Of a stretch of 21,637 bases of DNA, positions 19 to 21,460 are shown piece after piece. This DNA is from a virus. Under the pieces are notes generated by a model, which saw only the letters and a program-made list of their open reading frames with translations, was not told where the DNA came from and did not search any database. The stretch is taken from positions 1 through 21,637 of IMG/VR virus record IMGVR_UViG_3300006803_000114; one strand, given 5' to 3'. Made by a program: the position numbers and the translations under genes. How positions within the stretch are numbered: the first letter of the stretch is position 1; every line of letters starts with the position of its first letter.

Positions 19-79
19 TTTTTTCACTTTTTTTCACATTAGGGCTTGCAAAAGGAACGGATCCGTCCCATTATGCATC
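19..79 (+). promoter_or_regulatory. Early-type promoter with embedded operator, copy 1
   Basis: A sigma70-like promoter is visible: -35 TTGCAA at 46-51, a 17-bp spacer and -10 CATTAT at 69-74. The spacer holds the palindrome ACGGATCCGT at 57-66, a likely operator. Two T-tracts, at about 19-24 and 28-34, lie just upstream, each followed by CAC; they are roughly one helical turn apart and could act as an UP element or bend. The 61 bp are identical to 3099-3159, and a diverged copy lies at 5327-5382. Transcription should start near 81 and run through the A/C repeat into the 93-aa gene. Confidence 0.8.
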
Positions 80-90
80 CCTAGTCAGAA

Positions 91-118
91 ACAACCAACA
101 ACCAACAACCAACAACCA
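91..118 (+). repeat. Four tandem ACAACCA 7-mers in an mRNA leader
   Basis: Four perfect copies of ACAACCA run back to back and continue as ACACCAAAACATT into the start codon at 132. The leader has no Shine-Dalgarno sequence and would be single-stranded in RNA. Its composition matches the shorter AACAACCAAC leaders of many genes here, so it probably acts as an A/C-rich translation enhancer rather than a mobile repeat. Confidence 0.75.
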
Positions 119-131
119 ACACCAAAACATT

Positions 132-413
132 ATGAGCAATTACTATCACGACGCCCAACAAGAGCACAACGACCACGTCATGTTTGCCCGCGAGGATTAC
201 ATACGGGAGGCATACGGATCCTCAGAGATCGACGGAGACGCCGAAGCCGCAATCGAAGATGCAAGATGGGAAGCAAACTGGGCATCATTATCGCCAGAAG
301 AGAAAGCCGCAATCGAAGCCAAGACTCTCAAAGCCGAACTCGAAGAGGCGAAAGCGTGGCAAGCAATGATCGACGACAACAAGAAAAACGAAGAGCTCGG
401 GATCCCGTTTTAA
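132..413 (+). CDS. Small acidic protein with an SSB-like C-terminal tip
   Basis: This is a 93-aa acidic, Glu/Ala-rich, probably helical protein of unknown family. It is the first gene behind promoter copy 1 and follows a long A/C leader, so strong expression is likely. There is no signal peptide or membrane segment. It ends EELGIPF: acidic residues followed by Ile-Pro-Phe, the pattern bacterial SSB proteins use to recruit partner proteins. The phage SSB in this window ends EDEIPF and also begins MSNY. The rest shows no OB-fold. A hairpin terminator follows at 431-459, so it may be a single-gene transcript. The SSB-tip idea is inference from terminal residues only. Confidence 0.8.
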   Translation: MSNYYHDAQQEHNDHVMFAREDYIREAYGSSEIDGDAEAAIEDARWEANWASLSPEEKAAIEAKTLKAELEEAKAWQAMIDDNKKNEELGIPF

Positions 414-430
414 TCAAACCAAGCCCAACA

Positions 431-459
431 CCCTGACCCGTAAAAAGGTCGGGGTTTTT
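431..459 (+). terminator. Rho-independent terminator
   Basis: CCCTGACC (431-438) pairs with GGTCGGGG (447-454) through eight base pairs including one T-G wobble, leaving an 8-nt loop and a following TTTTT. A nearly identical hairpin occurs at 3441-3469. It separates the 93-aa gene from the next gene, whose leader begins directly after it. Confidence 0.8.
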
Positions 460-483
460 GGGTGCAAACCAGAAACCAACATT

Positions 484-726
484 ATGAACAAAACAACAAT
501 CACAACAATCACCGTCAACGGATGGAACATCACAGCGGAGCCATACAGCGACCCTTGCGTATTGGTCGACATCGAGAGCCCGTGCGGCAACTACGGCGGA
601 AGCATTGCTCTCGTCGAAGACACAGGGGCCGTCGAGGACTATCGCACACACTCCAAAAGAAAGGCAGTGCCGAAATCCGTGATCAAAGCGGCACAACATC
701 TTGAAGACAATTTTTTCAACAAATAA
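484..726 (+). CDS. Hypothetical protein, 80 aa
   Basis: I do not recognise this 80-aa protein. The N-terminal half (MNKTTITTITVNGW and on) has alternating Thr/Ile/Val residues that suggest beta strands, while the C-terminal part is more basic and helical (KRKAVPKSVIKAAQHLEDNF). The start is chosen at 484 because it follows the A/C-rich leader ACCAACATT just downstream of the terminator. The first codons are themselves rich in AAC and ACA, as in other genes of this window. A separate 243-nt frame at 462-704 overlaps most of it but has arginine-rich shadow composition. No function can be proposed. Confidence 0.7.
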   Translation: MNKTTITTITVNGWNITAEPYSDPCVLVDIESPCGNYGGSIALVEDTGAVEDYRTHSKRKAVPKSVIKAAQHLEDNFFNK

Positions 727-736
727 AACCAACACA

Positions 737-1030
737 ATGAAACCCGAACAAGAAACCGTCAAAATCAATCCTTGGGCCATGATGGGCCACATTGCGGAGC
801 TCTACGCCGACAACGAGAACCCGGAGATCGCCCGGCAAATTTACATCGGCGTTACATCGGATTACCCCGGGGTCGACACGCCCGAGAAATTCGATCAATG
901 GGATGCATGGCGGGTTTACCGACTCACCGTATGGGAGCACAAGGGCGTCCTGGCCGGGCATTACACAAACATCTCATGGCAAGACGCCTCGAAAGCCGAA
1001 TGGGAGCAAAAAACCCGGGATCTCGAGTAA
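737..1030 (+). CDS. Hypothetical protein, 97 aa
   Basis: This is a 97-aa soluble protein rich in Trp and acidic residues, of no family I recognise. The frame is open from an ATG at 701, but that start lies inside the preceding gene; 737 follows the leader AAAACCAACACA and is preferred. The centre contains a run of aromatic residues (QWDAWRVYRL) and the C-terminus is a charged helix. It is the last small gene before the terminase block and is followed by a 171-nt gap with palindromes. No terminator was seen directly after it. Confidence 0.7.
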   Translation: MKPEQETVKINPWAMMGHIAELYADNENPEIARQIYIGVTSDYPGVDTPEKFDQWDAWRVYRLTVWEHKGVLAGHYTNISWQDASKAEWEQKTRDLE

Positions 1031-1201
1031 GGTCAGTTTCGGGAGTTTCGGCAAAGGCCAGTCATTCGGAAATTCCGAATCAATAGCGCGACTTGCACAC
1101 GATACGCGGGCGAGGAAAAAAACGGGCGACATGTGACGGGCCCGGATCCGGGCGGGACGTTTCCGCTTGCACTTGGAACGTCGACGCGGCAATGTCGAGA
1201 T
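1031..1201 (+). promoter_or_regulatory. Palindrome-rich gap before the terminase genes
   Basis: No convincing gene lies in this 171-nt gap. It contains ATTCGGAA-A-TTCCGAAT, a perfect 8+8 inverted repeat at 1064-1080, and the 14-bp palindrome GCCCGGATCCGGGC at 1140-1153. The 7-mer GTTTCGG occurs twice near 1037-1052. A weak promoter candidate, TTGCAC (1167-1172) with 17-bp spacing to CAATGT (1190-1195), sits just before the terminase start. The inverted repeats could be operators or part of a packaging-recognition site, since pac/cos sites often lie near the small terminase gene. Neither role is shown by sequence alone. Confidence 0.45.
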
Positions 1202-1648
1202 ATGGCAAAACTCAAGCTCACGACAGCGGTCATCGAGTCGATTTGTTCATCGATCCGGGGGGGCTCTTATATTCTGGCCGCGTGCGGTCGGGCCCGGGTT
1301 TCTCGACGATCCTTTTACGAGTGGAAAGAGCGAGGCGAGAAAGAGCGCGAAGAGGGGCGGAACACGATACACGTCAAATTTATCGACGCACTCGAGCACG
1401 CCGAAGCCGACAACGAGGTCATGCTCGTCGAGTCAGTATCATCAGACGTCGACTGGAGAGCGAAAATGGAGATCCTCAAGAGACGATACAAAGAGAGATG
1501 GGGTGACAGCTCAAAAACAGAGCTCTCGGGCCCGGGCGGGCAACCATTGCCAACGGCAGCAATTCCGCCGCTCACGATCATCTACAAAAACGAGGGACAT
1601 GAGGTGCCCGAATTTATCGACCAGACGGACGAGACGCCAAAAACATGA
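1202..1648 (+). CDS. Terminase small subunit (DNA-packaging recognition protein)
   Basis: The protein would recognise the phage packaging site and load the large terminase. It is 148 aa from the ATG at 1202. A longer frame from 1133 adds a proline/glycine-rich, low-quality N-terminus and is less likely. Residues about 14-45 form a helix-turn-helix-like segment (SICSSIRGGSYILAACGRAR, then SRRSFYEWKERG) typical of small terminase subunits. This is followed by a charged helical central region, and the tail from about residue 103 is Pro/Gly-rich and disordered. It overlaps the large subunit by ATGA at 1645-1648, so the two are translationally coupled. The adjacent large subunit makes the call secure in context. 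Confidence 0.8.
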   Translation: MAKLKLTTAVIESICSSIRGGSYILAACGRARVSRRSFYEWKERGEKEREEGRNTIHVKFIDALEHAEADNEVMLVESVSSDVDWRAKMEILKRRYKERWGDSSKTELSGPGGQPLPTAAIPPLTIIYKNEGHEVPEFIDQTDETPKT

Positions 1649-3060
1649 TTGCACAAGATCAAGGCGTCGAGCTCGTCTTGCAACCGAAGCAAAAGGCGGC
1701 AATCAATAGCCCGGCACGGGAGACTCTTTACGGAGGGGCCGCGGGAGGGGGCAAGAGTTGGCTATTGCGGGCCGCGGCGATTCTTTGGAGTTTACAGGTG
1801 CCGAAATTGCAAACGTATCTCTTTCGGCGTACTTGGCCAGAACTCGAATACAACCATTTGCAAGGATCCGGGAGTTTCCGGGACATGCTCGGGCCGATCA
1901 TGAGCTCAGGGCACGCGAAGATCGTCGGGAAACAAGTCCGATTCAGCAACGGGAGCCGAATCAACCTTTGTCACTTAGCGAACGTCAACGACCTCACGAA
2001 ATATCAAGGGGCCGAGATTCACGTATTGCTACTCGACGAGGCGACGCACTTCACAGAGGCCGAGTACAGATACCTCCGGGCCCGGATGCGTATCGGGACG
2101 CTCGAGGTGCCCGATCATGTCGAGACACAATTCCCGAGATCGATCCTCGGGACAAACCCCGGGGGCGTCGGGCATCATTGGTGCAAAGCGGGATTTGTCG
2201 ATCAAGGGGATTTCATCGTCAAGAGAGCGGGCAAAGCCGAGGGCGGAATGACTCGAGTTTTCGTCCCGGCAAGGCTCGAGGACAATTTCGCAATGATGAA
2301 AAACGACCCCGACTATGAAGAGCGACTCGAGGGGCTCGGAGATCGTGAGTTGATCAGAGCCCTGAGAGATGGCGACTGGGAAGTCATAGCCGGGGCAATG
2401 TATGGGGGAGTATGGAGAAAGGAAAAACACGTTTGTCGACCTTTCGACATTCCGATCGACTGGGAAGTATGGGTCGGAGCCGACGACGGATATGCAGCTC
2501 CGGCGGCAATGTATTGGATCACACAAAACCCAACGACAAAGACGTATTATGTGATCGCCGAACTATACGCCGAGGGCATGCTCCCGAGAGAATACGCCGA
2601 GCGGGCTCTCGCGATCAACGACAGGCTCGGGCGTTGCGATCACGAAGGGGAGCCCGTCAGACACGAGGCACCGATCGTCGGGAGTATGGACTCGGGAGCA
2701 TTCGCCAACATCGGCAGCGCGGACGCATCGGGCAAAGAGGCCATACCCCGGGGGAAGCAATTGCAAGCTCTTGGGCTCAGGATCAAGCCCGTCGAGAAAT
2801 GGGCGGGATCAAGGGTGCACCGGGCCCAACTCTTGCACCTCTTACTCGCCCCGAACCAGCTCGACCCCGAAGGCGGGCCCGGCATTGTCTTTTTTGAGAA
2901 TTGCGTCAACGCCGTCAGAACGATCCCGGCCCTTGGGAGATCGACATCAAACCCCGAGGACGTCGACACAACTCACGAGGATCACGCATACGACGCGATC
3001 ACATACGCGTTGCAAAGACGGCGGACAAAGAGCGGGAAACGCAAAATCGGGGGGCTTTAA
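1645..3060 (+). CDS. terL: Terminase large subunit (packaging ATPase/nuclease)
   Basis: This is the motor that pumps DNA into the prohead and cuts concatemers. The 471-aa length is normal for the family. A Walker A motif GGAAGGGKS lies at residues 30-38, with K37 as the expected ATP-binding lysine. The Walker B motif LLLDEA at about 128-133 ends in D131-E132. The C-terminal RNase H-like nuclease has likely metal-binding acidic residues at D280 (GADDGY), D349 (SMDSGAF) and D450 in DHAYDAITYAL. All core motifs are intact. Its start overlaps the small subunit stop. Promoter copy 2 begins 38 bp after its stop, so transcription of the next block is probably initiated independently. Confidence 0.96.
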   Translation: MIAQDQGVELVLQPKQKAAINSPARETLYGGAAGGGKSWLLRAAAILWSLQVPKLQTYLFRRTWPELEYNHLQGSGSFRDMLGPIMSSGHAKIVGKQVRFSNGSRINLCHLANVNDLTKYQGAEIHVLLLDEATHFTEAEYRYLRARMRIGTLEVPDHVETQFPRSILGTNPGGVGHHWCKAGFVDQGDFIVKRAGKAEGGMTRVFVPARLEDNFAMMKNDPDYEERLEGLGDRELIRALRDGDWEVIAGAMYGGVWRKEKHVCRPFDIPIDWEVWVGADDGYAAPAAMYWITQNPTTKTYYVIAELYAEGMLPREYAERALAINDRLGRCDHEGEPVRHEAPIVGSMDSGAFANIGSADASGKEAIPRGKQLQALGLRIKPVEKWAGSRVHRAQLLHLLLAPNQLDPEGGPGIVFFENCVNAVRTIPALGRSTSNPEDVDTTHEDHAYDAITYALQRRRTKSGKRKIGGL

Positions 3061-3098
3061 GAGAGCGGCAAACCCTTGTATTTACAGGGAAAAGAAAG

Positions 3099-3159
3099 TT
3101 TTTTCACTTTTTTTCACATTAGGGCTTGCAAAAGGAACGGATCCGTCCCATTATGCATC
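3099..3159 (+). promoter_or_regulatory. Early-type promoter with embedded operator, copy 2
   Basis: These 61 bp are identical to 19-79. The -35 TTGCAA is at 3126-3131, the -10 CATTAT at 3149-3154 and the operator palindrome ACGGATCCGT at 3137-3146. The ATG of the next gene is at 3164, only nine bases beyond the -10, so the transcript would have a leader of about three bases. Perfect conservation over both T-tracts and the -10 suggests recent duplication or strong selection. Confidence 0.8.
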
Positions 3160-3163
3160 TCCA

Positions 3164-3418
3164 ATGAACGACACGACCAACACAACGACAAGCCCGATCG
3201 CCCAACTTATCAAGGGCAACCAGCAAATCGCAAGCGCGAAAACTTTCGCCTCGCATGCTGAGATTCTTGATTTCATTCAGACAGCCGTCACGGGCAATAT
3301 GGAGGGGCAAGAATATATGCACGGCAGGGAGATCCTCGACGACGTGCTCGACGATTTGATCAGATACCGATCAAGCCTCGAGTCGATCGACGCATACGTC
3401 AAGGCGAACAAGCTCTAA
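3164..3418 (+). CDS. Hypothetical protein, 84 aa, directly behind promoter copy 2
   Basis: This is an 84-aa protein of unknown family. Residues 1-9 are MNDTTNTTT, an A/C-rich coding start shared with two unrelated genes at 3477 and 5392. The remainder is acidic and helical, with ILDDVLDDLI near residue 62 and no membrane segment. The frame is open far upstream inside the terminase gene, but 3164 is the only start downstream of the promoter -10. The expected transcript is nearly leaderless. A terminator follows at 3441-3469, so the gene may form its own short transcript in early infection. Confidence 0.75.
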   Translation: MNDTTNTTTSPIAQLIKGNQQIASAKTFASHAEILDFIQTAVTGNMEGQEYMHGREILDDVLDDLIRYRSSLESIDAYVKANKL

Positions 3419-3440
3419 GCAAAGCCCCATTTCCCCATTA

Positions 3441-3469
3441 CCCTGACCCGTGAAAAGGTCGGGGCTTTT
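3441..3469 (+). terminator. Rho-independent terminator
   Basis: CCCTGACC (3441-3448) pairs with GGTCGGGG (3457-3464), with loop CGTGAAAA and a short CTTTT tail. It differs from the hairpin at 431-459 by only a few bases. The ATG of the next gene at 3477 lies eight bases beyond, so read-through is needed to express that gene unless another promoter exists. Confidence 0.7.
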
Positions 3470-3476
3470 GGGTGTA

Positions 3477-3797
3477 ATGAACAACGAAACCAACACAACA
3501 GCAATCGCCGCCCGCCAACTCGAAATCCTCATTCGCACTCAAACCCGCGAATGGTACGGCGACGAGGATCACATCGGCGAAGAGGGATACGGCAGATATA
3601 AATGCAAGGGATCGTCCGATTTCGTGACGAAAGTCAACGAGGCGGATCTCATGTATTTCGAAGACGCAATCAAAGCGGCATTCAACGCGGAGTACAACGT
3701 CAATGGGCTTTTCTTTCGATACGAGGCCCGGGAGATCGAGATATATCACAAGCCCGGTCACATTACCCTCAACGTCGAGATCGAGCGCGAAGGCTAA
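3477..3797 (+). CDS. Hypothetical protein, 106 aa
   Basis: This protein has 106 residues from the ATG at 3477. A longer frame from 3450 would start inside the terminator hairpin and is rejected. The start is MNNETNTTAIAA, again encoded by AAC/ACC/ACA codons. The body is acidic with many aromatic residues and probably has mixed alpha/beta structure; the C-terminal stretch GHITLNVEIEREG looks like a beta strand. No family is recognised. The gene is followed within eight bases by the first GCCCCC-TCCG-GGGGGC hairpin. Confidence 0.75.
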   Translation: MNNETNTTAIAARQLEILIRTQTREWYGDEDHIGEEGYGRYKCKGSSDFVTKVNEADLMYFEDAIKAAFNAEYNVNGLFFRYEAREIEIYHKPGHITLNVEIEREG

Positions 3798-3804
3798 TCA
3801 ACAA

Positions 3805-3820
3805 GCCCCCTCCGGGGGGC
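3805..3820 (+). other. Intergenic GC hairpin, unit 1
   Basis: GCCCCC-TCCG-GGGGGC forms a 6-bp perfect stem with a 4-nt loop. There is no T-run, so it is not a typical intrinsic terminator. It sits between TAATCAACAA and an A/C-rich leader ending AACAACATG. The same module recurs at 5610, 5829, 6111 and 6375, with a variant at 4435. Possible roles are mRNA processing or stabilisation, or insulation of adjacent cistrons. Confidence 0.7.
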
Positions 3821-3836
3821 GCAACTCACCAACAAC

Positions 3837-4073
3837 ATGAAAGCACAAACAAACAACGAAATAGACGCCCGGCAAGAGTGGATCAAAGAGACTGATCGAT
3901 TCGAAAAAATGGAATGGATGGCGGAGACATGCTCGACGACATTTATGAGAATGCACCTCGTCAATGAAATGACGAGTTGGTTTGAAGAGGACGACTTTGA
4001 CAAGTTTTTCGATCACATCTCAGCATGTTGGGAAATCGAAACGCCGCCCGAAACCCAAATCGAAAGAGAATAA
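3837..4073 (+). CDS. Hypothetical acidic protein, 78 aa
   Basis: This is a 78-aa acidic protein rich in Glu, Met and Trp and probably all-helical. The central MEWMAETCSTTFMRMHLVNEM segment is amphipathic (written here only to show composition), and the following WFEEDDFDKFFDHI segment is strongly acidic. The family is unknown. The start follows the leader CACCAACAAC with no Shine-Dalgarno sequence. Its stop TAA shares one base with the ATG of the next gene at 4073, so the two are probably translationally coupled. The acidic, small, early-region character is typical of host-takeover proteins, but no target can be named. Confidence 0.75.
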   Translation: MKAQTNNEIDARQEWIKETDRFEKMEWMAETCSTTFMRMHLVNEMTSWFEEDDFDKFFDHISACWEIETPPETQIERE

Positions 4074-4213
4074 TGAGAGAGCTCAAACGCAAAATCAGAG
4101 TCGAAATTTTAAGGGCAAAAAAAGACCCGATATTCAAAGGCTCAATTTGGATCCTCACAATACACGCGGCAAGCGTCGCAATTTACGCAACAATCACAAT
4201 CCTGACACAATGA
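4073..4213 (+). CDS. Small single-pass membrane protein, 46 aa
   Basis: This 46-aa protein begins at 4073, overlapping the preceding stop as TAATG. A longer frame from 4025 lies inside the preceding gene and is rejected. Residues 1-22 are basic (RELKRKIRVEILRAKK), and residues about 23-44 form one hydrophobic helix (IWILTIHAASVAIYATITIL). The positive-inside rule predicts the N-terminus in the cytoplasm. It overlaps the next gene by ATGA at 4210-4213, making a three-gene coupled set. A holin-like or membrane-anchoring role is conceivable, but one short helix is not diagnostic. Confidence 0.65.
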   Translation: MRELKRKIRVEILRAKKDPIFKGSIWILTIHAASVAIYATITILTQ

Positions 4214-4425
4214 TCGAAAACAACCAACAACGCAAAGACGAGGCCGTACAGACGCTCGAGCGTCTCGACAGCATAAGATACAACAACGACCTTGCCGGGG
4301 CCCCTGAGCTCGCCGAGGACGTCATCAACGAGATCGCAGAGCAAGAGCGTCTCGAGGCAAAAGCATTTTGGGCCCGGATGCACGAGCAAGGGCACACGCT
4401 CGAGCTCGTCGAGGTGCCCAACTAA
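4210..4425 (+). CDS. Hypothetical protein, 71 aa
   Basis: The 71-aa protein is Glu/Ala/Leu-rich and probably a helical bundle or coiled coil (for example AEDVINEIAEQERLEAKAFW). A longer open frame reaching back to 3982 overlaps two genes and has shadow composition. The ATG at 4210 overlaps the previous stop as ATGA and is followed by AAC-rich codons (MIENNQQRK). No family is recognised. A variant GC hairpin follows at 4435. Confidence 0.7.
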   Translation: MIENNQQRKDEAVQTLERLDSIRYNNDLAGAPELAEDVINEIAEQERLEAKAFWARMHEQGHTLELVEVPN

Positions 4426-4434
4426 TCAAATCAA

Positions 4435-4452
4435 GCCCCCCGGGAGGGGGGC
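4435..4452 (+). other. Intergenic GC hairpin, variant unit 2
   Basis: GCCCCCC-GGGA-GGGGGGC forms a 7-bp stem with loop GGGA, flanked by the same TCAA and ACAACCAAC sequences as the other units. The loop is closer to the reverse complement of the usual TCCG loop. Conservation of the stem despite an altered loop suggests structure, not sequence, is selected. Confidence 0.65.
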
Positions 4453-4470
4453 ACAACCAACAAAAACAAA

Positions 4471-4650
4471 ATGGAAAACGCAAACGACAAAAACAACGCT
4501 CTCGAGTATTCCGAGGACGACGAGATGGAAACCGGCAAGGGGTGGTATTGGCAACAACAGCACGGAGAATGGTTTACGAGCCAACTTTTCGAGACGGCGG
4601 AAAAGGCGATCGAAGCCATGAACGAGGGAACCGTCAAATTCGGAGCGTGA
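4471..4650 (+). CDS. Short hypothetical protein, 59 aa
   Basis: The ATG at 4471 follows the leader CACAACCAACAAAAACAAA and opens a 59-aa frame ending TGA at 4648-4650. It starts MENANDKNNALEYSEDD and contains a Trp-rich core, GKGWYWQQQHGEWFTSQLF, then a helix ETAEKAIEAMNEG. The pattern W-Y-W...GEWF followed by a helix resembles small phage proteins with a beta-hairpin plus helix, but I do not recognise the family. It is placed exactly between the hairpin at 4435 and the next gene at 4653, which supports it as a real gene despite its length. Competing frames over this stretch are Arg/Lys-rich shadows. Confidence 0.65.
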   Translation: MENANDKNNALEYSEDDEMETGKGWYWQQQHGEWFTSQLFETAEKAIEAMNEGTVKFGA

Positions 4651-4652
4651 AA

Positions 4653-5003
4653 ATGGAGTATTTCAATTTTCGCCATATCATGAAGGCCGCGGGGATCCCG
4701 AAAAGCAAAGTTAACAACTGGTCGACGGGGCACGCTTTGCGAAACATTGCGCAGCAACTCGGGCACGACCCGACTCACATCCTCACGAAAAAAACGAACC
4801 CGAACCCGAGCGTCAAGGCCCCTCACATCATCGCTCATTATCCAATGGAGATTTTTTCGCAAGCCTTGGAACATGTCGCGCAAATATGGGCAAATAGCCC
4901 GAGCAACGACGCGACTCAAATGCAGCTATTCGACGAGAGGCTCGACAACATACCCAACGACGAACTGATCGACGAGGACAACGACAACGAAACAACGACA
5001 TAA
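4653..5003 (+). CDS. Putative helix-turn-helix-like protein, 116 aa
   Basis: The protein has 116 residues from the ATG at 4653, two bases after the preceding stop. Residues about 5-35 (FRHIMKAAGIPKSKVNNWST and on) look like a helix-turn-helix in which KSKVNNW would be the recognition-helix start. The middle is basic and Pro/Asn-rich (TKKTNPNPSVKAPH). The C-terminal 30 residues are very acidic (DELIDEDNDNE). A DNA-binding regulator is a reasonable guess, and it would be a candidate to bind the ACG-N4-CGT operators, but this is inference. It overlaps the next gene as TAATG at 5001-5005. Confidence 0.65.
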   Translation: MEYFNFRHIMKAAGIPKSKVNNWSTGHALRNIAQQLGHDPTHILTKKTNPNPSVKAPHIIAHYPMEIFSQALEHVAQIWANSPSNDATQMQLFDERLDNIPNDELIDEDNDNETTT

Positions 5004-5314
5004 TGCATACTCATATGAGAACAAAAGCAATAATCACCGCGGCCCTGATCGCGGCAACAACCCCGTCACTGATCGCCGACACGATCGTGACAGGGAGGCC
5101 CGACGCATTCGGCAGGACGACAAGCGTCATATACGCCGACAACGGCAGGGTCATAGCAAGGGCGATCACCAACAAGCCCGACGCTTTCGGACGCCGCAAA
5201 ACGACGTATGTGAGCAACCGGGGCAAAGTCGTCGCAGAGTCTCAAACTGACAGGCCCGACTCATTCGGGCGCAGGATCACGAGGTTTCTCAAACTCCGCA
5301 AGGCCCGTAAATAG
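5003..5314 (+). CDS. Exported basic protein with three PDxFGR repeats
   Basis: The 103-aa protein begins at 5003, overlapping the previous stop; M5 at 5015 is an alternative start. Residues 5-25 form a signal peptide: RTK, a hydrophobic Ala/Ile core, then SLIAD as a possible cleavage site. The mature part is three repeats with exact 26-residue spacing, PDAFGR at 33-38, PDAFGR at 59-64 and PDSFGR at 85-90. The first two are followed by a predicted beta-hairpin containing an N-x-G or N-R-G turn. The tail is basic (LKLRKARK). An envelope or periplasmic role follows from the signal peptide. No enzyme motif is visible and I do not recognise the family. Confidence 0.75.
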   Translation: MHTHMRTKAIITAALIAATTPSLIADTIVTGRPDAFGRTTSVIYADNGRVIARAITNKPDAFGRRKTTYVSNRGKVVAESQTDRPDSFGRRITRFLKLRKARK

Positions 5315-5332
5315 GGCACCGGGGGCTTTTTT
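5303..5332 (+). terminator. Possible weak terminator overlapping promoter copy 3
   Basis: GCCC (5303-5306) can pair with GGGC (5314-5317) or with the GGGGGC at 5321-5326 that is followed by TTTTTT. The stem is short. The T-run also forms the first T-tract of promoter copy 3, so one element may end the upstream transcript and activate the next promoter. Confidence 0.3.
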
Positions 5333-5382
5333 CACATTTTTTCACATTAGGGCTTGCAAAAGGGACGTTTTCGTTGCATTAT
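5327..5382 (+). promoter_or_regulatory. Early-type promoter with diverged operator, copy 3
   Basis: This copy has -35 TTGCAA at 5354-5359, 17-bp spacing and -10 CATTAT at 5377-5382. The upstream block TTTTTTCACATTAGGGC is conserved. The spacer differs from copies 1 and 2 in its central four bases (TTTT instead of GATC) but keeps ACG and CGT at the same positions (5365-5374). The ATG at 5392 lies nine bases beyond the -10, the same geometry as copy 2. It should drive the run of hairpin-separated genes up to about 6775 and perhaps further. Confidence 0.75.
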
Positions 5383-5391
5383 GTTTACACG

Positions 5392-5601
5392 ATGAACAAC
5401 ACGACCAACACAACAGCCGCCAAGCACAGAGAAAAGTCAGTCTCAGAAAATGAGTTTGATCGCATAAGCCAGAAATTCCCGGGCGTGCAAGTCCGCAAGT
5501 TTCAAGCGTCAGGATTGAAAGAGACTTTCCTCGTGAAATGGCTCGACGGAGAAAAGGCACCTTACGACCTCGTCTATTTATTCCGGGCCAATTTCGGATA
5601 G
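5392..5601 (+). CDS. Hypothetical protein, 69 aa, behind promoter copy 3
   Basis: The 69-aa protein starts at 5392 with MNNTTNTTAAKHRE, the same A/C-rich coding start as the genes at 3164 and 3477. An upstream in-frame ATG at 5374 lies before the -10 and cannot be used by this promoter. The rest resembles a small mixed alpha/beta fold (EFDRISQKFPGVQVRKF, FLVKWLDGEKAPYDLVYLF). The final strand ends FRANFG. No family is recognised and there is no membrane segment. A GC hairpin follows nine bases after the stop. Confidence 0.7.
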   Translation: MNNTTNTTAAKHREKSVSENEFDRISQKFPGVQVRKFQASGLKETFLVKWLDGEKAPYDLVYLFRANFG

Positions 5602-5609
5602 TCAACACA

Positions 5610-5625
5610 GCCCCCTCCGGGGGGC
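5610..5625 (+). other. Intergenic GC hairpin, unit 3
   Basis: GCCCCC-TCCG-GGGGGC, 6-bp stem, no T-run. It is followed by CACAACCAACACAAACCAAC and the ATG at 5648, the same hairpin-plus-leader arrangement as the other units. Confidence 0.7.
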
Positions 5626-5647
5626 ACAACCAACACAAACCAACAAC

Positions 5648-5828: not shown

Positions 5829-5844
5829 GCCCCCTCCGGGGGGC
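5829..5844 (+). other. Intergenic GC hairpin, unit 4
   Basis: GCCCCC-TCCG-GGGGGC, followed by ACAACCAACGAGAACCAAC and AACATG. The surrounding 50 bp are almost identical to those around 6375, including the first codons after the ATG (ATGAAAAC). Confidence 0.7.
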
Positions 5845-6110: not shown

Positions 6111-6126
6111 GCCCCCTCCGGGGGGC
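6111..6126 (+). other. Intergenic GC hairpin, unit 5
   Basis: GCCCCC-TCCG-GGGGGC between TAAACAACAA and GCAATCAATCATCAAA. The downstream leader here is A/T/C-rich rather than the usual AACCAAC, showing that the hairpin can be kept while the leader drifts. Confidence 0.7.
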
Positions 6127-6374: not shown

Positions 6375-6390
6375 GCCCCCTCCGGGGGGC
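6375..6390 (+). other. Intergenic GC hairpin, unit 6
   Basis: GCCCCC-TCCG-GGGGGC, followed by ACAACCAACGAAAACCAAC and AACATG. It is the last unit of the series; downstream genes are joined by overlaps or short gaps instead. Confidence 0.7.
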
Positions 6391-6783: not shown

Positions 6784-7242
6784 ATGTGGATATTTACAAG
6801 TGACGAGTTTCTGAGCGTCGTGAGGCACCGGGACAAACCCGACAGCCTCATGATCAGATACCGAAGCCGGGAGCAAGCCGAGGCATGCACGCTCCCGGGG
6901 GACGTATCGATTACACAACTTGCCGACTATATCGCCCGGAAGACGGTCAAAGAAACCGACTTTGTCGATTGGATAATAAACAAGACGGCGTCGTTGCAAT
7001 ACGACAACTACAAAAACAGCACCGCCGATACCCTCATGCACAAGGCCCCTCTCATGAGAGTATGGGATACAATGTATCAATGGCAAAACGAGAGCGAATA
7101 CGGCGACGAGTTTCACGCGTCTCACCCCTCATCAGCATACTGGCACGATTACGCCGACGACAAGGAAACGGTTTTCTGTGAGAATTGTTGGGAGTTTCAC
7201 GGCCCTGATCAGGCATGCAAACAAAGAGAGGGGGTCGAATGA
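6784..7242 (+). CDS. Conserved phage protein with a C-terminal CCHC zinc-knuckle-like tail
   Basis: The 152-aa protein starts at 6784 (MWIFTSDEFLSVVRHRDKPD). A longer frame back to 6700 lies inside the preceding gene. The start, followed by LMIRYRSREQAEA near residue 22 and LQYDNYKNS...MRVWDTMYQWQ at 71-101, matches a widespread uncharacterised phage and bacterial family whose members share the MW-x-FT start, R-x-R and YDN(F/Y)K...VW-x-MY motifs. At the C-terminus C132, C135, H139 and C145 form a C-x2-C-x3-H-x5-C arrangement that could bind zinc. The stop overlaps the next gene by ATGA. Role unknown; the nucleic-acid neighbours suggest replication or nucleotide handling. Confidence 0.7.
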   Translation: MWIFTSDEFLSVVRHRDKPDSLMIRYRSREQAEACTLPGDVSITQLADYIARKTVKETDFVDWIINKTASLQYDNYKNSTADTLMHKAPLMRVWDTMYQWQNESEYGDEFHASHPSSAYWHDYADDKETVFCENCWEFHGPDQACKQREGVE

Positions 7243-7586
7243 AAGTCGACACACCTCAACTCGAGAACGTCACGACAGGCGATCTTGTCGCCGAGCTCAA
7301 CAGCCGGGGACACAACCCGGAAGACGCCAAGGCCGAGCAAATCGTCAGCCTGATCGCCAGACGATACGGGATCGATCGGACGACATTACTCACCAAGCAC
7401 AAAGAGGGCAAAAACGTCGCGGCATATCTGATCAGGAAATGCACGGAACTCACATGGGCCGAACTGAGCGACATGCTCGGATACTCCGATCACACCGGGG
7501 CCGTTTACGCATGTAAAAAGGGAGAGCAAACATACGAGGCCGAGGGCTTTTCGACAATCTGGGGAAACACAGAAACAAAACAATAA
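7239..7586 (+). CDS. Stand-alone DnaA domain IV-like DNA-binding protein
   Basis: The protein is 115 aa from the ATG at 7239, which overlaps the previous stop. Residues about 34-97 resemble the C-terminal DNA-binding domain of the replication initiator DnaA: IVSLIARRYGIDRTTL, then AAYLIRKCTELTWAELSDML and GYSDHTGAVYACKKGE. The last stretch aligns with the DnaA signature, in which a conserved Asp-His pair is followed by a small residue and a helix. There is no AAA+ ATPase domain, so it cannot act as DnaA alone. It could recognise DnaA-box-like sites at a phage origin, recruit host initiator or act as a competitor. Its position two bases before the SSB gene supports a replication role. Confidence 0.65.
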   Translation: MKVDTPQLENVTTGDLVAELNSRGHNPEDAKAEQIVSLIARRYGIDRTTLLTKHKEGKNVAAYLIRKCTELTWAELSDMLGYSDHTGAVYACKKGEQTYEAEGFSTIWGNTETKQ

Positions 7587-10626: not shown

Positions 10627-13600
10627 ATGGCCTCAGCGAATGAATACCTCGAGGACTGGTCGAACACAAACGCGATCAACATTTTACGCGTCGAGGCCGG
10701 GATACGAAAGGACGTGGTCAAAGAGCTCGAGAAGCTCGAGCAAAACCTTGTCGGGCAAATAGCGAAAGCGAGCCCGAGCAAAAAGGGGAGTTTGCAAGCA
10801 TTGCTCAAAGACACGAGCGCAACGATCAATGGCTCATACCAGACGATCAGCAAGAATCACGGGGCGGATCTCGACAAACTGGCAAAGACGCAAATCAAAG
10901 GCACGACAGCCGCACTCAATGGGGCGATAGGCGTCCCGATATTGCGGAGGCAAGTCACAGAGACGCAAGTCAACGCCGTCATGAAGCGGAGCAATGTCGA
11001 AGGGCACAGCTCGGGGGCGTGGTGGAAAGCTCAAGACAAAAGCCTCCGATTCAAATTCGAGGGCCAAATGAGGCAAGGATACCTCGCCGGGGAAGACGTG
11101 GGGGATCTCGCAAAGAGGATCCGGGGCACCAAGGCGAACAACTACAAAGACGGGATCATGAACGTCTCGAAGGCTCAAGCCGAGGCACTAGCGAGAAGCT
11201 CAGTACAAACCGTTAGCAACGAGGCCCGGCTCAAGACGATCGAAGAAAACGACGACATTGTCAAAGCCGTCAAATGGATGGCAACCCTCGACGCGAGAAC
11301 GACGAAGACGTGCATGGCCCTCGACGGCAAGACTTGGAGCGTCCCGGAATACAAGCCGATCGATCACGACAAAGAATTTCCCGGGCCAACAGCTCATTGG
11401 GGGTGCCGATCAACGCAAGTCCCGGTCATGCCGAGTCTCGCGGATCTCATCGGGAAGCCGATAAAGGCAATGGACGACATGGAGTTTCAAGACGCCGTGC
11501 AAGCCAAGCTCGAGGCGATGGGAATGAGCGAAGAGCAAAGAGCCGCGGCCGTCGTCAACTCAAGAGCAAGCATGGACGGGCAAGTCCCAAAAACGAAGAC
11601 TTACAATGAATGGCTCGGAACCAAATCGCCAGCATTTCAGAACCAAGTCCTCGGGCCGACTCGAGCGAAACTTTTCAGAGAGGGGCAACTCACGATCAGC
11701 GATCTCACCAATCAAAACAATCGGCCGCTCAGGCTCAATCAGCTCAACGCGGCAATCGACTCAGACGGGCCCGAGATAGCAGTCGAAACGGAAGGGATCC
11801 CGCAAACGCAAACCCCGGCGATCAAGCTCGTCGCGGATTTGCCACAAACAACCCTCGCGAGAAAGCTCGCACAGGGCGAGGGATACGAAACCGTCGACGC
11901 CGTTTATATTGACGGGCTCGGGCAACTCAAGCCTCCGACCCCGGGGGAATTTGCCGAATACAAGGGCGTGCTCAACCTGAGCATCGACACCGATCAAGTC
12001 ACAGGGCAAAAGCTAAAACTCGACGACATCAACCTCTCGACAGACAAGGTCGTCAAAGAGGATCTCGAGAAGCTGGTCGAAAAGCCGATCACGAAAAAGA
12101 TTTTCGTCGTCAGGCAAGAGGACGGGAGTCTCGTCGCAATCGACGGGCATGCAGAATGGGCCGCGGCAAAGCTCAGGGGAGACACGGAGATCGACGCGTT
12201 TGTGCTCGACGTGAAGCAATACAACGCCGAGCAAAAGATCGCCGACGAGGTCGACTTTGCAAAAGCGGGCGACAAAAGCTCGATCAAGCTCGTCGAAGCA
12301 ATGGACGGGCTCAAAAAGACATTCCCGAATCTCGAGCCCGACACTCTACTCAAGCAAGCCGAGGGCGTGGTCATCGAGAAACAAGCGGCAGCAACAAAAG
12401 CGAGTTATCTCAGCAAAGCCAAAAAGGCAATCGCCGAGGGCAAAATCCCGACAGCCGCGCAGCAAAAAGCAATAAGCACACTTACCGGGCCCGAGATTAC
12501 AGCTTTTAACGAGGACGTCGAAGCATACACAGCCAAGGCTCAAGAGAAACAACTCAATAAGACGTTTACAGACGACCTCAAGAGCAAGCTCGAGCAATTC
12601 AAGACGGGCACAGAAGAGCAACAATCAGTTTATGATTATTTAGGCGAGAAGATCGAGGCGGAGTTTCCGACCTCGACAAAGGATCTCGACGCGGCAATCA
12701 AAATGCTCAACTCCGAGGTCGACGACGTCGCAGCATTCGAGCTCGCGAAACTTGTCGTCGAAGGCGGATCCAAATACAGCCAAATCAACGAGAAGACATT
12801 CAAAGAAACAACAGGTTTCACAACAGGAACGAAAAATTTCGGCGATTTGGTCGACACACTGCCAGACGGGCAAGCTCACGCGATACTCGAGAAATTCAAA
12901 GCCGTAAAAGCAGAGAAAACAGCGGCGGCAACGGAAGCGACATATCTCAGCAAGGCGAAAAACGCAATCGCAGAGGGGAAGAAACCGACCCCGGCACAGC
13001 AAAAGGCGATCGACAATATCCCAACAAGCGAGCTCGACGACTTTTACAAAGACGTCGACGAGAAGAAAGCGGCAAAAAAGACAGAGGTTTTCAGTATGAA
13101 GATCGAAGGGCTCGAGGCCGCGATCGCCGATCAGGAGAAACAACCAGTCAAGCAAACGGAGACGACAGCCAAGCTCGACAAAGACGTCAAAAACCTCGAC
13201 CTCTATTTCCCGCAAGCCGACAAGCTCGAGTTTGTCAAACAACTCAACGGATCAACAAAGCCTCAGCTCATGGTCGACCCGGAGACGGGCAAACAATGGG
13301 TCGTCAAGAGCGACAAGTTTGAGAATAACCTGACCAAGCAAGCCCTATACAGCGAGGCGACAGCCGACAAAATTTATCGAGAGATGGGGGCAAAGGTGCC
13401 GGGATCCAAGGCAATGGTCATCAATGGGGATACTTACAAGATCGCCGAGTATGTCGACAATAGCCTCGAGCTCGGAAAATGGCAGAGCAAAGTCAACACA
13501 GCCAGCGGAGACTCTCAGCTCGGGGCGAAAGTCAAAACCAAGCTCAGAGAGCACTTTGTCCTCGACTCATTACTCGGGAACCGGGACGTCGCCGGGCAAT

Positions 13601-15780
13601 CAAACGACAACATTCTCGTCACTACCGACTCGGAACCCTTTCGGATCGACAACGGATCATCGTTGTCATTCAGAGCAAAAGGGGACAAAAAAGACTCGGA
13701 CGCATGGGGCCCGGTCGTCGGAGAGCTCGAATCAATGAGGGGCCCATTGGCGGCGGGAGAAACCGCGGACATATTCAAGGGCATATCTCAGAATGAGATT
13801 CACAATCAAATACGGGACATCGTCAAAAACAAGGCGAAGATCCTCAATATTGCAAGCGAATCACAACAGTCGAAAGACGTCACGATCCTCGAGCAAAGGA
13901 TCGACTATCTCGAGACATTACTCCCGGCGGCAAAGAAAGAGGTCAAAAAGAAAGTTTCACTAAGGGGAGACGGGCTCGATTATTTCCATAAAGATTTCGA
14001 GACAGCATCAGCGAAGCGATACGGCACAACCATCAAGGCAGGATTTGACACATTCGAGGATCAAGCCCTCTCTGTGTGGAAAGAGACAACCCCGACGGGG
14101 GAAAAGGTGGTCAAGATCCAAGGCAAATTGCTCAAAAAGTCATCTCAAGATTTGATGAAAAATCTCGAGAAAGCCGGGCTCGACTTATCAGGAACAACGG
14201 CCCCGGCGTCTCAAACAGCGGCCCCGGCAATAAGCCCGTACGAAGTCGACGGCCACTGGCTCGCGTTGAAAAAAGCGGCGGGAAACATCGGATACCATGC
14301 AAGCAACAAAAACGGGGCGTCGGTAACTTACAACCCCGAGACGATGAAAGGGCTCGACGACGTAAAGTCTCAAATCGAAACCTTTTTAAAACTTCAAAAG
14401 GACAATCTTTATGGGATGGCCGATCTCGAATCGAAGCAAGCAAAAGAGCTCATCGAATCGATCGAAGTCCTCGGGTATTACGACAAAATGGCGGACGATT
14501 TGCTCAAAGCAAAAAAAGCAGAAGCCCCGCCGTCGAAAATATGGAAACGATACGAGCCTAAAGTCATTGACGCCGCACCGGCAGTAGAAAAAACAAACGA
14601 GGTCGTCATCAATGGGGTCACAATAACAAGAAGTAGAGACACACAATTCAATTTCACAAAAAAAGTCGTCGGGGCCGACGGCAGATTGCAAGACACGACA
14701 GAGGTCAATGGAACTATTGACGGGAGGCAATTCGATCACAAGGTCGACAAAATGATCATTGCCAAGGCCGGGGGCGTAGAGGTGACAATTGTCCCGTATG
14801 AGGGCCGCACTCCGAAATCAAGCCCGGACACGACGCGGGGAATGAATGGCTTTGTCAGGGTCAAGATACAGGGCGACGACAGCACAGCGGCAACGATCGA
14901 GGGCATGAGAGCATTGCAAGCGATCGGGCTCAAAGTGGATCCGCCAACACAAGCACAGCGAGAGCTCTTGTATATTCACAAAACAGCCTATCTCAACGAC
15001 GACATTTCCGATCCGGCATACAAAAAAGCAACAGGCGGGAAAGGCACGCCAGAAGCAAAGCTCGAAAAGGTCAAACAATGGGCCGAATCAAAATACAAAA
15101 TCACGATACCTCGAGAGCCGAAGGACTATCATCGATATTACAACCCCGACGGGGAGCCCCCTCTCAATGGAGTCGGAGACGTAATTTACAGGCGAATGGA
15201 CGTCGACCCGGACTATGCGAAAAAGAAAGAGGACGAGGTCGTCTTCTATCATAGATCAAAATATCTCAAAAAAACCGTCTCTGCATGGCTCGAAAACGGA
15301 GGGCATACGACATCAACAGAAGATCGACTCAGGACGGGGGCGGACATGACGGGCGGCGAGTCATCAGAGACGGACATGAGAAGAGGGGGATCGGCATTTC
15401 TTTATTCCAACTTGACAAGCCCGCAAACGGCGCAGCAATTAACGGGCGTAATATTCAAAGGCGACAACCTCACAAGGGTCGATCTCGCTAGTCACAATTA
15501 CGACTCATACGGAGAATGGGAAGCATCGGCAACCGGGCTTCGCAGGAGATCCGTTGACAAGATAGCCGAGCAAAGAGGGATCGGAGTCAATAACAACTCG
15601 GGACTTTTCAAAAATGGCTTGCCAATGACGGAGGTACAGTATATTACTATGGGCTCACAGAATGCTCGTGCCGAATATCTCAAGGAATTGAAAGCGGCAG
15701 GTTTTAAAGAGTGGCCAGACGGGCGAAGGCTCGAGGACGTCGTGATTTCAACCATACAGCAACACGTCGGAACACAATGA
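10627..15780 (+). CDS. Giant MuF-type minor head protein fused to a multidomain (polyvalent) effector
   Basis: This is a 1717-aa fusion, several times longer than a typical MuF protein (about 300-500 aa). Residues about 110-262 are the MuF domain: ALARSSVQTVSNEAR from 187, ATLDARTTKTC and the terminal HWGCRS near 257-262. Residues about 425-540 resemble a ParB/sulfiredoxin-like fold, with FVVRQEDGSLVAIDGHAEW (IDGHAEW at 505-511). Residues 587-630 and 766-810 are a duplicated helical unit. About 860-1060 form a lipid/protein-kinase-like domain: WVVK with K894, catalytic loop LLGNRDVAGQSNDNILV (N985, D987, N995) and metal-binding IDNGSSL (D1008). The C-terminus (about 1510-1717) may be an ADP-ribosyltransferase-like domain (R1522, TTST at 1561-1564, EWE at 1630-1632). 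The protein is probably packaged in the head and injected. Domain calls after MuF are pattern-based. Confidence 0.85.
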   Translation: MASANEYLEDWSNTNAINILRVEAGIRKDVVKELEKLEQNLVGQIAKASPSKKGSLQALLKDTSATINGSYQTISKNHGADLDKLAKTQIKGTTAALNGAIGVPILRRQVTETQVNAVMKRSNVEGHSSGAWWKAQDKSLRFKFEGQMRQGYLAGEDVGDLAKRIRGTKANNYKDGIMNVSKAQAEALARSSVQTVSNEARLKTIEENDDIVKAVKWMATLDARTTKTCMALDGKTWSVPEYKPIDHDKEFPGPTAHWGCRSTQVPVMPSLADLIGKPIKAMDDMEFQDAVQAKLEAMGMSEEQRAAAVVNSRASMDGQVPKTKTYNEWLGTKSPAFQNQVLGPTRAKLFREGQLTISDLTNQNNRPLRLNQLNAAIDSDGPEIAVETEGIPQTQTPAIKLVADLPQTTLARKLAQGEGYETVDAVYIDGLGQLKPPTPGEFAEYKGVLNLSIDTDQVTGQKLKLDDINLSTDKVVKEDLEKLVEKPITKKIFVVRQEDGSLVAIDGHAEWAAAKLRGDTEIDAFVLDVKQYNAEQKIADEVDFAKAGDKSSIKLVEAMDGLKKTFPNLEPDTLLKQAEGVVIEKQAAATKASYLSKAKKAIAEGKIPTAAQQKAISTLTGPEITAFNEDVEAYTAKAQEKQLNKTFTDDLKSKLEQFKTGTEEQQSVYDYLGEKIEAEFPTSTKDLDAAIKMLNSEVDDVAAFELAKLVVEGGSKYSQINEKTFKETTGFTTGTKNFGDLVDTLPDGQAHAILEKFKAVKAEKTAAATEATYLSKAKNAIAEGKKPTPAQQKAIDNIPTSELDDFYKDVDEKKAAKKTEVFSMKIEGLEAAIADQEKQPVKQTETTAKLDKDVKNLDLYFPQADKLEFVKQLNGSTKPQLMVDPETGKQWVVKSDKFENNLTKQALYSEATADKIYREMGAKVPGSKAMVINGDTYKIAEYVDNSLELGKWQSKVNTASGDSQLGAKVKTKLREHFVLDSLLGNRDVAGQSNDNILVTTDSEPFRIDNGSSLSFRAKGDKKDSDAWGPVVGELESMRGPLAAGETADIFKGISQNEIHNQIRDIVKNKAKILNIASESQQSKDVTILEQRIDYLETLLPAAKKEVKKKVSLRGDGLDYFHKDFETASAKRYGTTIKAGFDTFEDQALSVWKETTPTGEKVVKIQGKLLKKSSQDLMKNLEKAGLDLSGTTAPASQTAAPAISPYEVDGHWLALKKAAGNIGYHASNKNGASVTYNPETMKGLDDVKSQIETFLKLQKDNLYGMADLESKQAKELIESIEVLGYYDKMADDLLKAKKAEAPPSKIWKRYEPKVIDAAPAVEKTNEVVINGVTITRSRDTQFNFTKKVVGADGRLQDTTEVNGTIDGRQFDHKVDKMIIAKAGGVEVTIVPYEGRTPKSSPDTTRGMNGFVRVKIQGDDSTAATIEGMRALQAIGLKVDPPTQAQRELLYIHKTAYLNDDISDPAYKKATGGKGTPEAKLEKVKQWAESKYKITIPREPKDYHRYYNPDGEPPLNGVGDVIYRRMDVDPDYAKKKEDEVVFYHRSKYLKKTVSAWLENGGHTTSTEDRLRTGADMTGGESSETDMRRGGSAFLYSNLTSPQTAQQLTGVIFKGDNLTRVDLASHNYDSYGEWEASATGLRRRSVDKIAEQRGIGVNNNSGLFKNGLPMTEVQYITMGSQNARAEYLKELKAAGFKEWPDGRRLEDVVISTIQQHVGTQ
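12385..13065 (+). repeat. Duplicated helical unit inside the MuF fusion
   Basis: Two segments, from about 12385 and 12922, encode AAATKASYLSKAKKAIAEGK and AAATEATYLSKAKNAIAEGK, each followed by PT-x-AQQKAI and an acidic helix. They lie about 540 bp apart (roughly 180 residues) and are similar at both the protein and DNA level. This is an internal duplication of a linker or scaffold module between the ParB-like and kinase-like domains. The intervening DNA is unique sequence. Confidence 0.7.
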
Positions 15781-19414: not shown

Positions 19415-21460
19415 ATGCCCGACTATACCGTCAAAGCAGACATCAATACACTCCTACGGGCCGACGATTTCCCGGACGCCCGGACAAAGCTCGGCCTTGG
19501 ATCCGCGGCAACCTCAAATCAAGAGGATTTCGCGACAGGCGCGGAGGGCGATCTCGCGGGGACGGCATTACAGCCCGCCGCGATAGGAGTCACAGTCGGG
19601 GCCCATGTCGACGCCGCATCAAACGCGGAGGCGATCGCGGGCACAGAGGCGGGGCTCAGGACATTCTCACCTCTGAGGATTGCGGAAGCAATCACGGCCC
19701 TCGGGTCGGGGGGAATAACCGTCGGAGATACGACAGAGATCAACCTCACTCTCGCAGCCGGGGAAATTACAGCCGACATCAACGCGGCATCAATCGCAAT
19801 CGGAAAACTCGACGGATCAATCAATACAAGTCTCGGCAAAGCCGACACAGCATTGCAAGCCGCCGCAATTGGAGTCACGGTCGGAGCTCACCTCGACGCC
19901 GCCTCAAATGCCGAAGCAATAGCAGGAACGGAGGCTGGGCTCAGGACATTCTCACCTCTGAGGATTGCGGAAGCGATCACGGCCCTCGGGTCGGGGGCGA
20001 TCACCGTCGGAGATACGACGGAGATCAACCTCACCCTCGCAGCCGGGGAGATTACAGCCGACATCAACGCGGCCTCAATCGCGATCGGAAAGCTCGACGG
20101 ATCAATCAATACGAGTCTCGGCAAAGCCGACACAGCATTGCAAGCCGCCGCAATTGGAGTCACGGTTCAAGGATTTGACACGATTCTCGAGAATACGACA
20201 GCAAGCTATACAACCGAAGAGCAAACCAAGCTCGCCGGGATATGGGGAGGCGAAAACAAGGTCGACGCGACAACGGCCCCGACAGCAAACAGCGACTCAG
20301 CAAATACCGACACAAACGGAACATTTTCAGTCGGGAGCGTATGGGTCGACACGACGGCAAACGAGGCGTATCGTTGCGTCGACTCGACTCCGACAGCGGC
20401 CGTATGGGTCAACACAACCCTCGGGACGGACGACCTCGCACAAATTGCAACGAGCGGATCCGCAAGCGATCTCACAACCGGGACGCTCTCGATCGCCAGA
20501 ATCGCGGCGGGATCGATCACGGAAAACGAGCTCAATGCAACGACAAACAGCTCTCTCGATCTTGCAGACACGGCCAGTCAGCCGGGTCACATGCACACGC
20601 AAGTCGATATATCAGATTTGTCCTCAGCTTCGACAGGCGTGCTCACAGGCGGGATATTGAGACTCGGAGCAACATCGACCCGATTCTCGATCGACGACGG
20701 CACAGGGATCATCGTCGACGAATTTGGGGCGGTCACGGAGGTAGCATGGTCGGGATTACTCAACAGAGAACCGACAAACCTCAACGCCCAACAAATTACC
20801 TTTTTGAGCATCAATGCCGCCGGGCAAATTCTCGAGCAATCCGGGCCATGGACACCGCAACAACGGAGGGAGCAAATTTGCATCGGCGTCGCCGTGCATG
20901 TCGATTTCACAAATGTCGTCGCGGTAAACAATGAGCAATCGATTGCATTCAATCCCATGAGCTCGACGTATGACATCGGCGGGGCCCTTGGTTTCCTTAA
21001 CCTCGACGGGAACGTGTTCTCGCCCGACGCTCAGACGGCGACAATGGCGATCGCAAAATCGGAGGGGGAAATTTTCAAAATGGGGGCAAATTACAACGTC
21101 AACACAAAGTCCCCTCACAACAAAACCCTCCCCTTACTCGATCCCGTGATTTTTGGGTATAGATACTCGGCGGGAAATACGGACGCGAATCAAACTGTCA
21201 TTGACCCGAACAACCTCGACGACGGGGCAAACGGATTGACGCCGATTTCCGGGAATGCAAATGCGAATATCTGGTCAATACAAAGAATTTACAGCTTCAT
21301 CTCAAACAATGTATTCATACAAAGGGGAGTCGAAGAGTTTGGGAGTCAAGCCGACGCGATCGCCGGAGTTGGCTCCGAGAATTACATGGTCGAATCCTCG
21401 ATCGAGGCAAACGGATTATTTCGTGGATATCTCATTGTCAAAAAGGCGAAACCGACTTGA
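19415..21460 (+). CDS. Tail-fibre-like protein with a 95-residue tandem repeat
   Basis: The 681-aa protein is probably a fibre or appendage. The N-terminal domain (about 1-53) is followed by a 95-residue unit at 54-148 repeated at 149-243, with only three residue differences. The repeats are Thr/Ala/Gly-rich (VGDTTEINLTLAAGEITADI) and presumably beta-helical. A central linker includes the segment VGSVWVDTTANEAYRCVDST, common in phage fibres. The piece SQPGHMHTQVDISDLSS (GH-x-HTQ-x-DI) is typical of tail-fibre proteins. The C-terminal domain (about 420-681) contains QRREQICIGVAVHVDFTNV, a pattern I associate with phage fibre heads. The stop overlaps a TTG start of the next gene. No receptor can be deduced. 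Confidence 0.8.
   Translation: MPDYTVKADINTLLRADDFPDARTKLGLGSAATSNQEDFATGAEGDLAGTALQPAAIGVTVGAHVDAASNAEAIAGTEAGLRTFSPLRIAEAITALGSGGITVGDTTEINLTLAAGEITADINAASIAIGKLDGSINTSLGKADTALQAAAIGVTVGAHLDAASNAEAIAGTEAGLRTFSPLRIAEAITALGSGAITVGDTTEINLTLAAGEITADINAASIAIGKLDGSINTSLGKADTALQAAAIGVTVQGFDTILENTTASYTTEEQTKLAGIWGGENKVDATTAPTANSDSANTDTNGTFSVGSVWVDTTANEAYRCVDSTPTAAVWVNTTLGTDDLAQIATSGSASDLTTGTLSIARIAAGSITENELNATTNSSLDLADTASQPGHMHTQVDISDLSSASTGVLTGGILRLGATSTRFSIDDGTGIIVDEFGAVTEVAWSGLLNREPTNLNAQQITFLSINAAGQILEQSGPWTPQQRREQICIGVAVHVDFTNVVAVNNEQSIAFNPMSSTYDIGGALGFLNLDGNVFSPDAQTATMAIAKSEGEIFKMGANYNVNTKSPHNKTLPLLDPVIFGYRYSAGNTDANQTVIDPNNLDDGANGLTPISGNANANIWSIQRIYSFISNNVFIQRGVEEFGSQADAIAGVGSENYMVESSIEANGLFRGYLIVKKAKPT
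19574..20143 (+). repeat. 285-bp tandem duplication in the fibre gene
   Basis: Units 19574-19858 and 19859-20143 are adjacent and exactly 285 bp (95 codons), followed by a 21-bp start of a third copy. Most DNA differences are at third codon positions. The three amino-acid changes are P/A, V/L and G/A at residues 54/149, 65/160 and 100/195. Confidence 0.93.

Follow-up and report, generated by a model that had tools for sequence, protein, structure and literature searches.

Repressors of the Cro and CI type, including the Aca proteins, are small helix-turn-helix (HTH) proteins that act on palindromic operators overlapping a promoter and that have operators at their own promoter as well. Equally familiar are the morons of lambdoid phages, small genes with their own promoter and terminator between conserved phage genes, which usually carry unrelated promoters. 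In phage SP-beta, a short site called SPBRE occurs in the promoter regions of many mostly uncharacterised genes and is bound by the phage repressor MrpR (PMC10516654), and in Cluster K mycobacteriophages the SAS repeats are found a short fixed distance before the ATG of many non-structural genes, about half of them with an upstream inverted repeat (PMC3203893). Here, we describe a putative promoter family, three copies of which are present in the virus record IMGVR_UViG_3300006803_000114 of IMG/VR (21,637 nucleotides, the whole of which is called the window in the following), and in which a 16-bp dyad, predicted to be the operator of a phage repressor, fills the spacer between the -35 and -10 hexamers.

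With SPBRE and MrpR, this locus shares a repeated promoter site and one phage-encoded repressor, here a predicted one; MrpR, however, is a tyrosine-recombinase-like protein that recognises a 15-bp motif in the maintenance of lysogeny, whereas in the present case the candidate is a small protein with a predicted HTH and no integrase has been detected. As in SAS, the repeat stands at a fixed short distance upstream of the ATG, but SAS possess a Shine-Dalgarno-like core and a proposed role in translation, while here a promoter with a dyad in its spacer is found without Shine-Dalgarno sequence. The likeness to Cro, CI and Aca proteins extends to a small protein with a predicted HTH, a palindromic operator over the promoter and operator-like sites at the protein's own promoter; the candidate repressor, HTH84, differs in that its sequence does not significantly match any known family and only its predicted fold agrees, with middling scores. 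Copies 1 and 2 of the promoter resemble lambdoid morons in their organisation, with the difference that one promoter family and one operator serve several cassettes. The switch is well preserved and of an essentially familiar type, as multi-copy repressor-bound phage elements and repeats tied to start codons are already known; in the present family, an operator inside the spacer is compactly paired with predicted near-leaderless starts.

A putative promoter family with a dyad in the spacer

As a sequence-only reading of the window had stated, TTGCAA-N17-CATTAT occurs exactly at positions 46-74, 3126-3154 and 5354-5382 of the plus strand; it is found nowhere else in the window and in none of 100 dinucleotide shuffles. 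As had also been stated, copy 1 agrees with copy 2 in every letter of a 61-bp stretch (exactly 19-79 and 3099-3159), and copy 3 (5327-5382) keeps 51 of these 61 positions. Copy 1 consists of a TTCAC-N5-TTCACA direct repeat at 23-38, the -35 hexamer TTGCAA at 46-51, the dyad GGAACG-GATC-CGTCCC at 54-69 and the -10 hexamer CATTAT at 69-74. The corresponding elements lie at 3103-3118, 3126-3131, 3134-3149 and 3149-3154 in copy 2, followed by 9 nucleotides and the ATG at 3164, and at 5331-5346, 5354-5359, 5362-5377 (GGGACG-TTTT-CGTTGC) and 5377-5382 in copy 3, followed again by 9 nucleotides and the ATG at 5392. The diverged spacer of copy 3 differs at its positions 5, 9, 10, 12, 16 and 17 and spares the triplets ACG (6-8) and CGT (13-15), as had been noticed; calculated on the window only, the probability that both triplets escape six random spacer changes is p = 0.037, so that the window alone gives weak support for selection on them. 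Separately, a weak promoter-like sequence, TTGCAC-N17-CAATGT with GGAACG in its spacer, is located at 1167-1195, 6 nucleotides before the start of the terminase small subunit, and is not clearly above background.

The window record, which encodes terminase, portal, an SPP1-like capsid, SSB and nuclease, is overlapped with 99% identity over 976 bp by an 18.7-kb record (L101), which continues upstream and stems from the same phage or one very close to it. Relatives of the window phage are L008, L114, L115 and G001, with a terminase identity of 84-85% where a terminase gene is present; G001, a 53,875-bp contig with five operators, is probably a complete genome because of its 123-bp terminal repeat. 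The promoter was not found in the distant relatives G002, G003, L011 and L012. Twelve distinct copies, five of them from G001, could be aligned without gaps, leaving out copy 1, the core of which equals copy 2, and an L008 copy with an 18-bp spacer. Common to these copies is the consensus CTTGCRAARGGRNCG-N4-YGTYCCAnnnT. In the -35 region CTTGC and AA are invariant, and the base between them shows a single A-to-G change. All twelve have a 17-bp spacer with the consensus RGGRACG-N4-YGTYCC, and the last base of the dyad, C, is at the same time the first base of the -10, CAnnnT, in which A2 and T6 are invariant. A weaker version of the promoter at 3918-3950 of L008 (CTTGTAAAGGGGACG...CATTTT, 7 nucleotides before an ATG) was not counted among the copies.

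Throughout the alignment the dyad arms are conserved, and the nearly free positions are the four at the dyad centre and five after the -10. The full dyad, GGRACG-N4-YGTYCC, comprises 16 bp inside the spacer and touches the -10; matches with up to one mismatch occur in the window only at the three promoters. Complementarity amounts to 0.74 at one centre compared with a mean of 0.26 for permuted columns (permutation p = 5e-5), and for 8-bp arms the next-best centre reaches 0.54 at the margin of the alignment, close to the start codon. The element most likely represents a sigma-70-type promoter family, and a symmetry beyond chance that overlaps the promoter is consistent with the operator of a dimeric repressor. 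The idea of a dyad-symmetric operator between -35 and -10, put forward from the window sequence, is thus upheld by the relatives, which also lend to selection on the half-sites, but not on the centre, the support that is weak in the window alone (p ~0.04); the site originally given, ACG-N4-CGT, is conserved in the relatives but too narrow. An alignment of the occurrences in relatives had been suggested as a check on this idea, and the loss of ACG-N4-CGT that would have spoken against it was not seen.

Recent duplication of cassettes without any selection on half-sites could also produce similar promoters, and the 61-bp identity of copies 1 and 2, the greater similarity of copies from a single genome than of copies from different genomes and the shift in position of cassette genes between phages are in line with it. 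Such an explanation is highly improbable, though, in view of conserved arms around an unconserved centre over 12 copies and of the promoters behind the terminase gene (TerL). Copy 2 is located directly 3' of this gene and a promoter is present at the same place in L008 and G001; in these three diverged phages the -35 is kept together with most of the dyad arms and of the -10, and the changes fall in the spacer centre and downstream of the -10.

The dyad could, on the other hand, be the target of a host regulator, LexA-type or another global repressor, by which the phage reads the state of its host. Such repressors typically bind between the -35 and the -10. A search of 2.9 million viral contigs with a degenerate pattern returned the clade of the window phage and one isolated match in an unrelated context, whereas a host site should recur in other phages that infect this host, and LexA motifs as commonly described do not fit, which makes a host regulator quite unlikely. 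Neither terminase nor tRNA genes pointed to a particular host: among 84,980 bacterial genomes, matches to the window terminase came from a range of phyla and mostly had an identity of about 40%, and the records scanned contain no tRNA genes.

HTH84 as the candidate repressor

As one possible regulator, the sequence-only reading had named the product of the 116-amino-acid gene at 4653. This candidate was rejected: by tblastn it is found in the window phage only, with no homologue in the operator-bearing G001 and L008, its structural model is poor, with a predicted local distance difference test score (pLDDT) of 54.5, and there is no significant family match. The other option mentioned, a gene outside the window, fares much better with HTH84, an 84-amino-acid protein encoded at L101:13024-13278, which the window phage shares with G001 and L114 at 75-84% identity; all three carry the operator. 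Its model (pLDDT 80) matches the HTH domains of POU, XRE, P22 c2 and Aca1 proteins with Z scores of 5-7.8, and Foldseek E-values are above 0.001. Since no significant match was obtained in Pfam, PHROGs or the sequences of the PDB, HTH84 is not filed as a member of a repressor family; its fold, predicted with fair confidence, may be that of a lambda-repressor-like HTH protein.

The promoter of HTH84 itself carries two operator-like dyads, 21 bp apart, around its -35 TTGAC in all three phages (GTGACGATCTCGACGC-TTGAC-GGAACGGGCAAGCCCC; GCAACGAGATCGGCGC-TTGAC-GGAACAAAGACATTCC; GGAACGTAAACAAAAC-TTGAC-GGAACGTAAACATACC). With a scoring matrix derived exclusively from the spacers of the promoter family, no other position in the complete L101 and G001 records scores as high as the dyad pair, which in L114 ranks within the top two; of the spacings from 17 to 29 bp, 21 bp scores best in each of the three phages. 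These tandem dyads are circumstantial evidence for autoregulation of HTH84. Taken together with the in-spacer operator, they make it reasonably probable that HTH84 is an autoregulated, Cro-like repressor which would shut off moron-like cassettes expressed early by a phage that is probably virulent.

Several observations weigh against this interpretation. The hexamers match the E. coli consensus at 8 of 12 positions and remained unlisted in a promoter scan with a threshold of 9 of 12, whereby the consensus of the host may differ. The dyads at the HTH84 promoter are imperfect, with scores of 2-11 compared with 12.6-19.4 in the promoter family, and their distance to the -35 is about 3 bp shorter. 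As homologues, the HTH84 promoter regions of the three phages are not independent, and the 21-bp spacing was recognised only in retrospect. The distant relative G003 possesses homologues of HTH84 and of a ParB-like protein, yet not this operator, and a search for its own version of the operator yielded a single site only. Finally, the gene for the ParB-like protein (L101:13294-14166) adjoins HTH84 and is conserved in the same phages. As a separate observation on G003 (L106-L108), a 16-bp palindrome, TGCGAAAATTTTCGCA, is found exactly or one base off in 15 places, often at gene junctions.

That the ParB-like protein binds the dyad, either as a KorB-like regulator or at centromere-like sites, is unlikely, even though it matches the ParB-like partition proteins in PHROGs, is 55-59% identical in the phages with HTH84 and belongs to a family with palindromic targets about as long as the 16-bp dyad. 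No ParA was seen among the open reading frames read, the sites are not dispersed but located in promoter spacers with fixed geometry, and the tandem dyads precede HTH84, which does not separate the two candidates cleanly as both genes possibly form one operon. The weakness of the hexamers by E. coli standards, with the same reservation about the host consensus, and the location of the dyad inside the spacer would also suit an activator that twists the DNA in the manner of MerR. Promoters of the MerR type have spacers of 19-20 bp, while the 17 bp found here are the normal optimum, and a site for an activator or an UP element is already available in the direct repeats (about -59 to -43); an activator bound in the spacer is therefore considered very unlikely.

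Start codons and the upstream repeat

The distance between the -10 and the ATG is exactly 9 nucleotides in 12 of 14 copies; the exceptions, copy 1 and one L008 copy, have an A/C-rich leader instead, which in copy 1 runs for about 50 nucleotides with AACAACC repeats to the gene at 132. In copies 2 and 3 the RNA would start about 3 nucleotides before the ATG, and the 9-nucleotide spacing implies nearly leaderless mRNAs. Most genes of the window phage lack a Shine-Dalgarno sequence and show A/C-rich stretches before or after the ATG, which points to a host with non-Shine-Dalgarno initiation; in the promoter-proximal genes the A/C-rich stretch follows the ATG. CA repeats after the start codon have been reported to enhance leaderless translation (PMC9031893).

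The paired T-tracts described earlier upstream of the promoters do exist, and are better described as a direct repeat. In most copies it reads TTCA(C/A)-N5-TTCACA with a period of 10 bp, about 43-59 bp before the predicted start, an arrangement that was encountered only at these promoters in the eight phage records searched. It may serve as a binding site for an activator or as an UP element rich in A and T. The two promoters before a 225-amino-acid gene (L101:5691 and the orthologue in G001) do not have it, but retain the operator. On the plus strand at 7215-7586, the window encodes a 123-amino-acid protein with a DNA-binding domain like DnaA domain IV (Pfam 1.8e-8; DHTGAVYACKK), with E. coli DnaA domain IV as the closest solved structure by sequence, and G001 and L115 possess this protein as well. 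As the TTCACA boxes are similar to the DnaA box TTATNCACA in its 3' half, and TTTTTCACA deviates from that box by one base, they might be the targets of this DnaA-like protein, a link that amounts to a guess. A DnaA domain IV without ATPase would in that case activate at the tandem TTCACA boxes immediately before the -35, with HTH84 repressing at the dyad, and early genes would be tied to the replication program; we regard this extended scheme as doubtful.

Cassette genes and other features of the window

The promoters stand before small genes with no assigned function. At copies 1 and 2, the promoter, a single gene and a terminator-like hairpin form a unit between conserved genes, as is characteristic of morons. 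Behind copy 1, a 93-amino-acid gene (132-413, plus strand) precedes the hairpin at 430-455 (plus strand), which has a homologue in L101 and is 89% identical to the intrinsic-terminator-like hairpin at 3441-3464 (plus strand) after the copy 2 gene. The latter gene (3164-3418, plus strand) encodes 84 amino acids with A/C-rich first codons and would be translated nearly leaderless. Copy 3 precedes a 69-amino-acid gene (5392-5601, plus strand), with no comparable T-tailed hairpin on its strand. Gene content at the places of copies 1 and 2 differs in the relatives. Orthologous cassette genes are found behind different promoter copies in different phages, as for the 93-amino-acid gene in G001 and L115, which suggests that cassettes move and that the promoter travels along or is reused. 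Models of defence systems gave no match among the cassette genes.

A family of five GCCCCCTCCGGGGGGC hairpins is distributed between small genes (3805-3820, 5609-5626, 5829-5844, 6111-6126 and 6375-6390), each followed by A/C-rich sequence (AACCAAC...) and then an ATG. Elsewhere in the window, a 1717-amino-acid protein (10627-15780) combines an N-terminal head-morphogenesis domain with a very long C-terminal extension, and the 681-amino-acid gene at 19415 contains a 285-bp tandem repeat at 19562-20131 in two copies of 89% identity.

Proposed mechanism and implications

In the regulation by HTH84 proposed here, a host sigma-70-type RNA polymerase would recognise TTGCAA, the 17-bp spacer and CAnnnT, with the 16-bp operator filling the spacer from about -27 to -12. 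Unoccupied promoters would allow early expression of short cassettes of small genes, some with a terminator-like hairpin after them. As HTH84 accumulates, its dimer would bind the dyad, block access of the polymerase and, in a Cro-like manner, shut the cassettes off; with a pair of dyads at 21-bp spacing in the promoter of its gene, HTH84 would be expected to repress itself, too. The promoter copies and their conservation, the dyad, the spacing of 9 nucleotides and the tandem dyads in front of HTH84 can be read from the sequence itself; transcription, the direction of regulation, binding by HTH84 and its timing we infer. The window, G001, G004 and G010 gave no match to the integrase, resolvase and S24-type families PF00589, PF00239 and PF00717, which suggests a probably virulent phage and favours shut-off of early genes over the maintenance of lysogeny.

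An operator, a candidate repressor and target genes together provide a testable regulon for uncultured phages with uncharacterised accessory genes, and the operator and promoter sequence can serve as a tag to find such promoters in metagenomes. Furthermore, the family predicts phage mRNAs that are nearly leaderless and open with codons rich in A and C.

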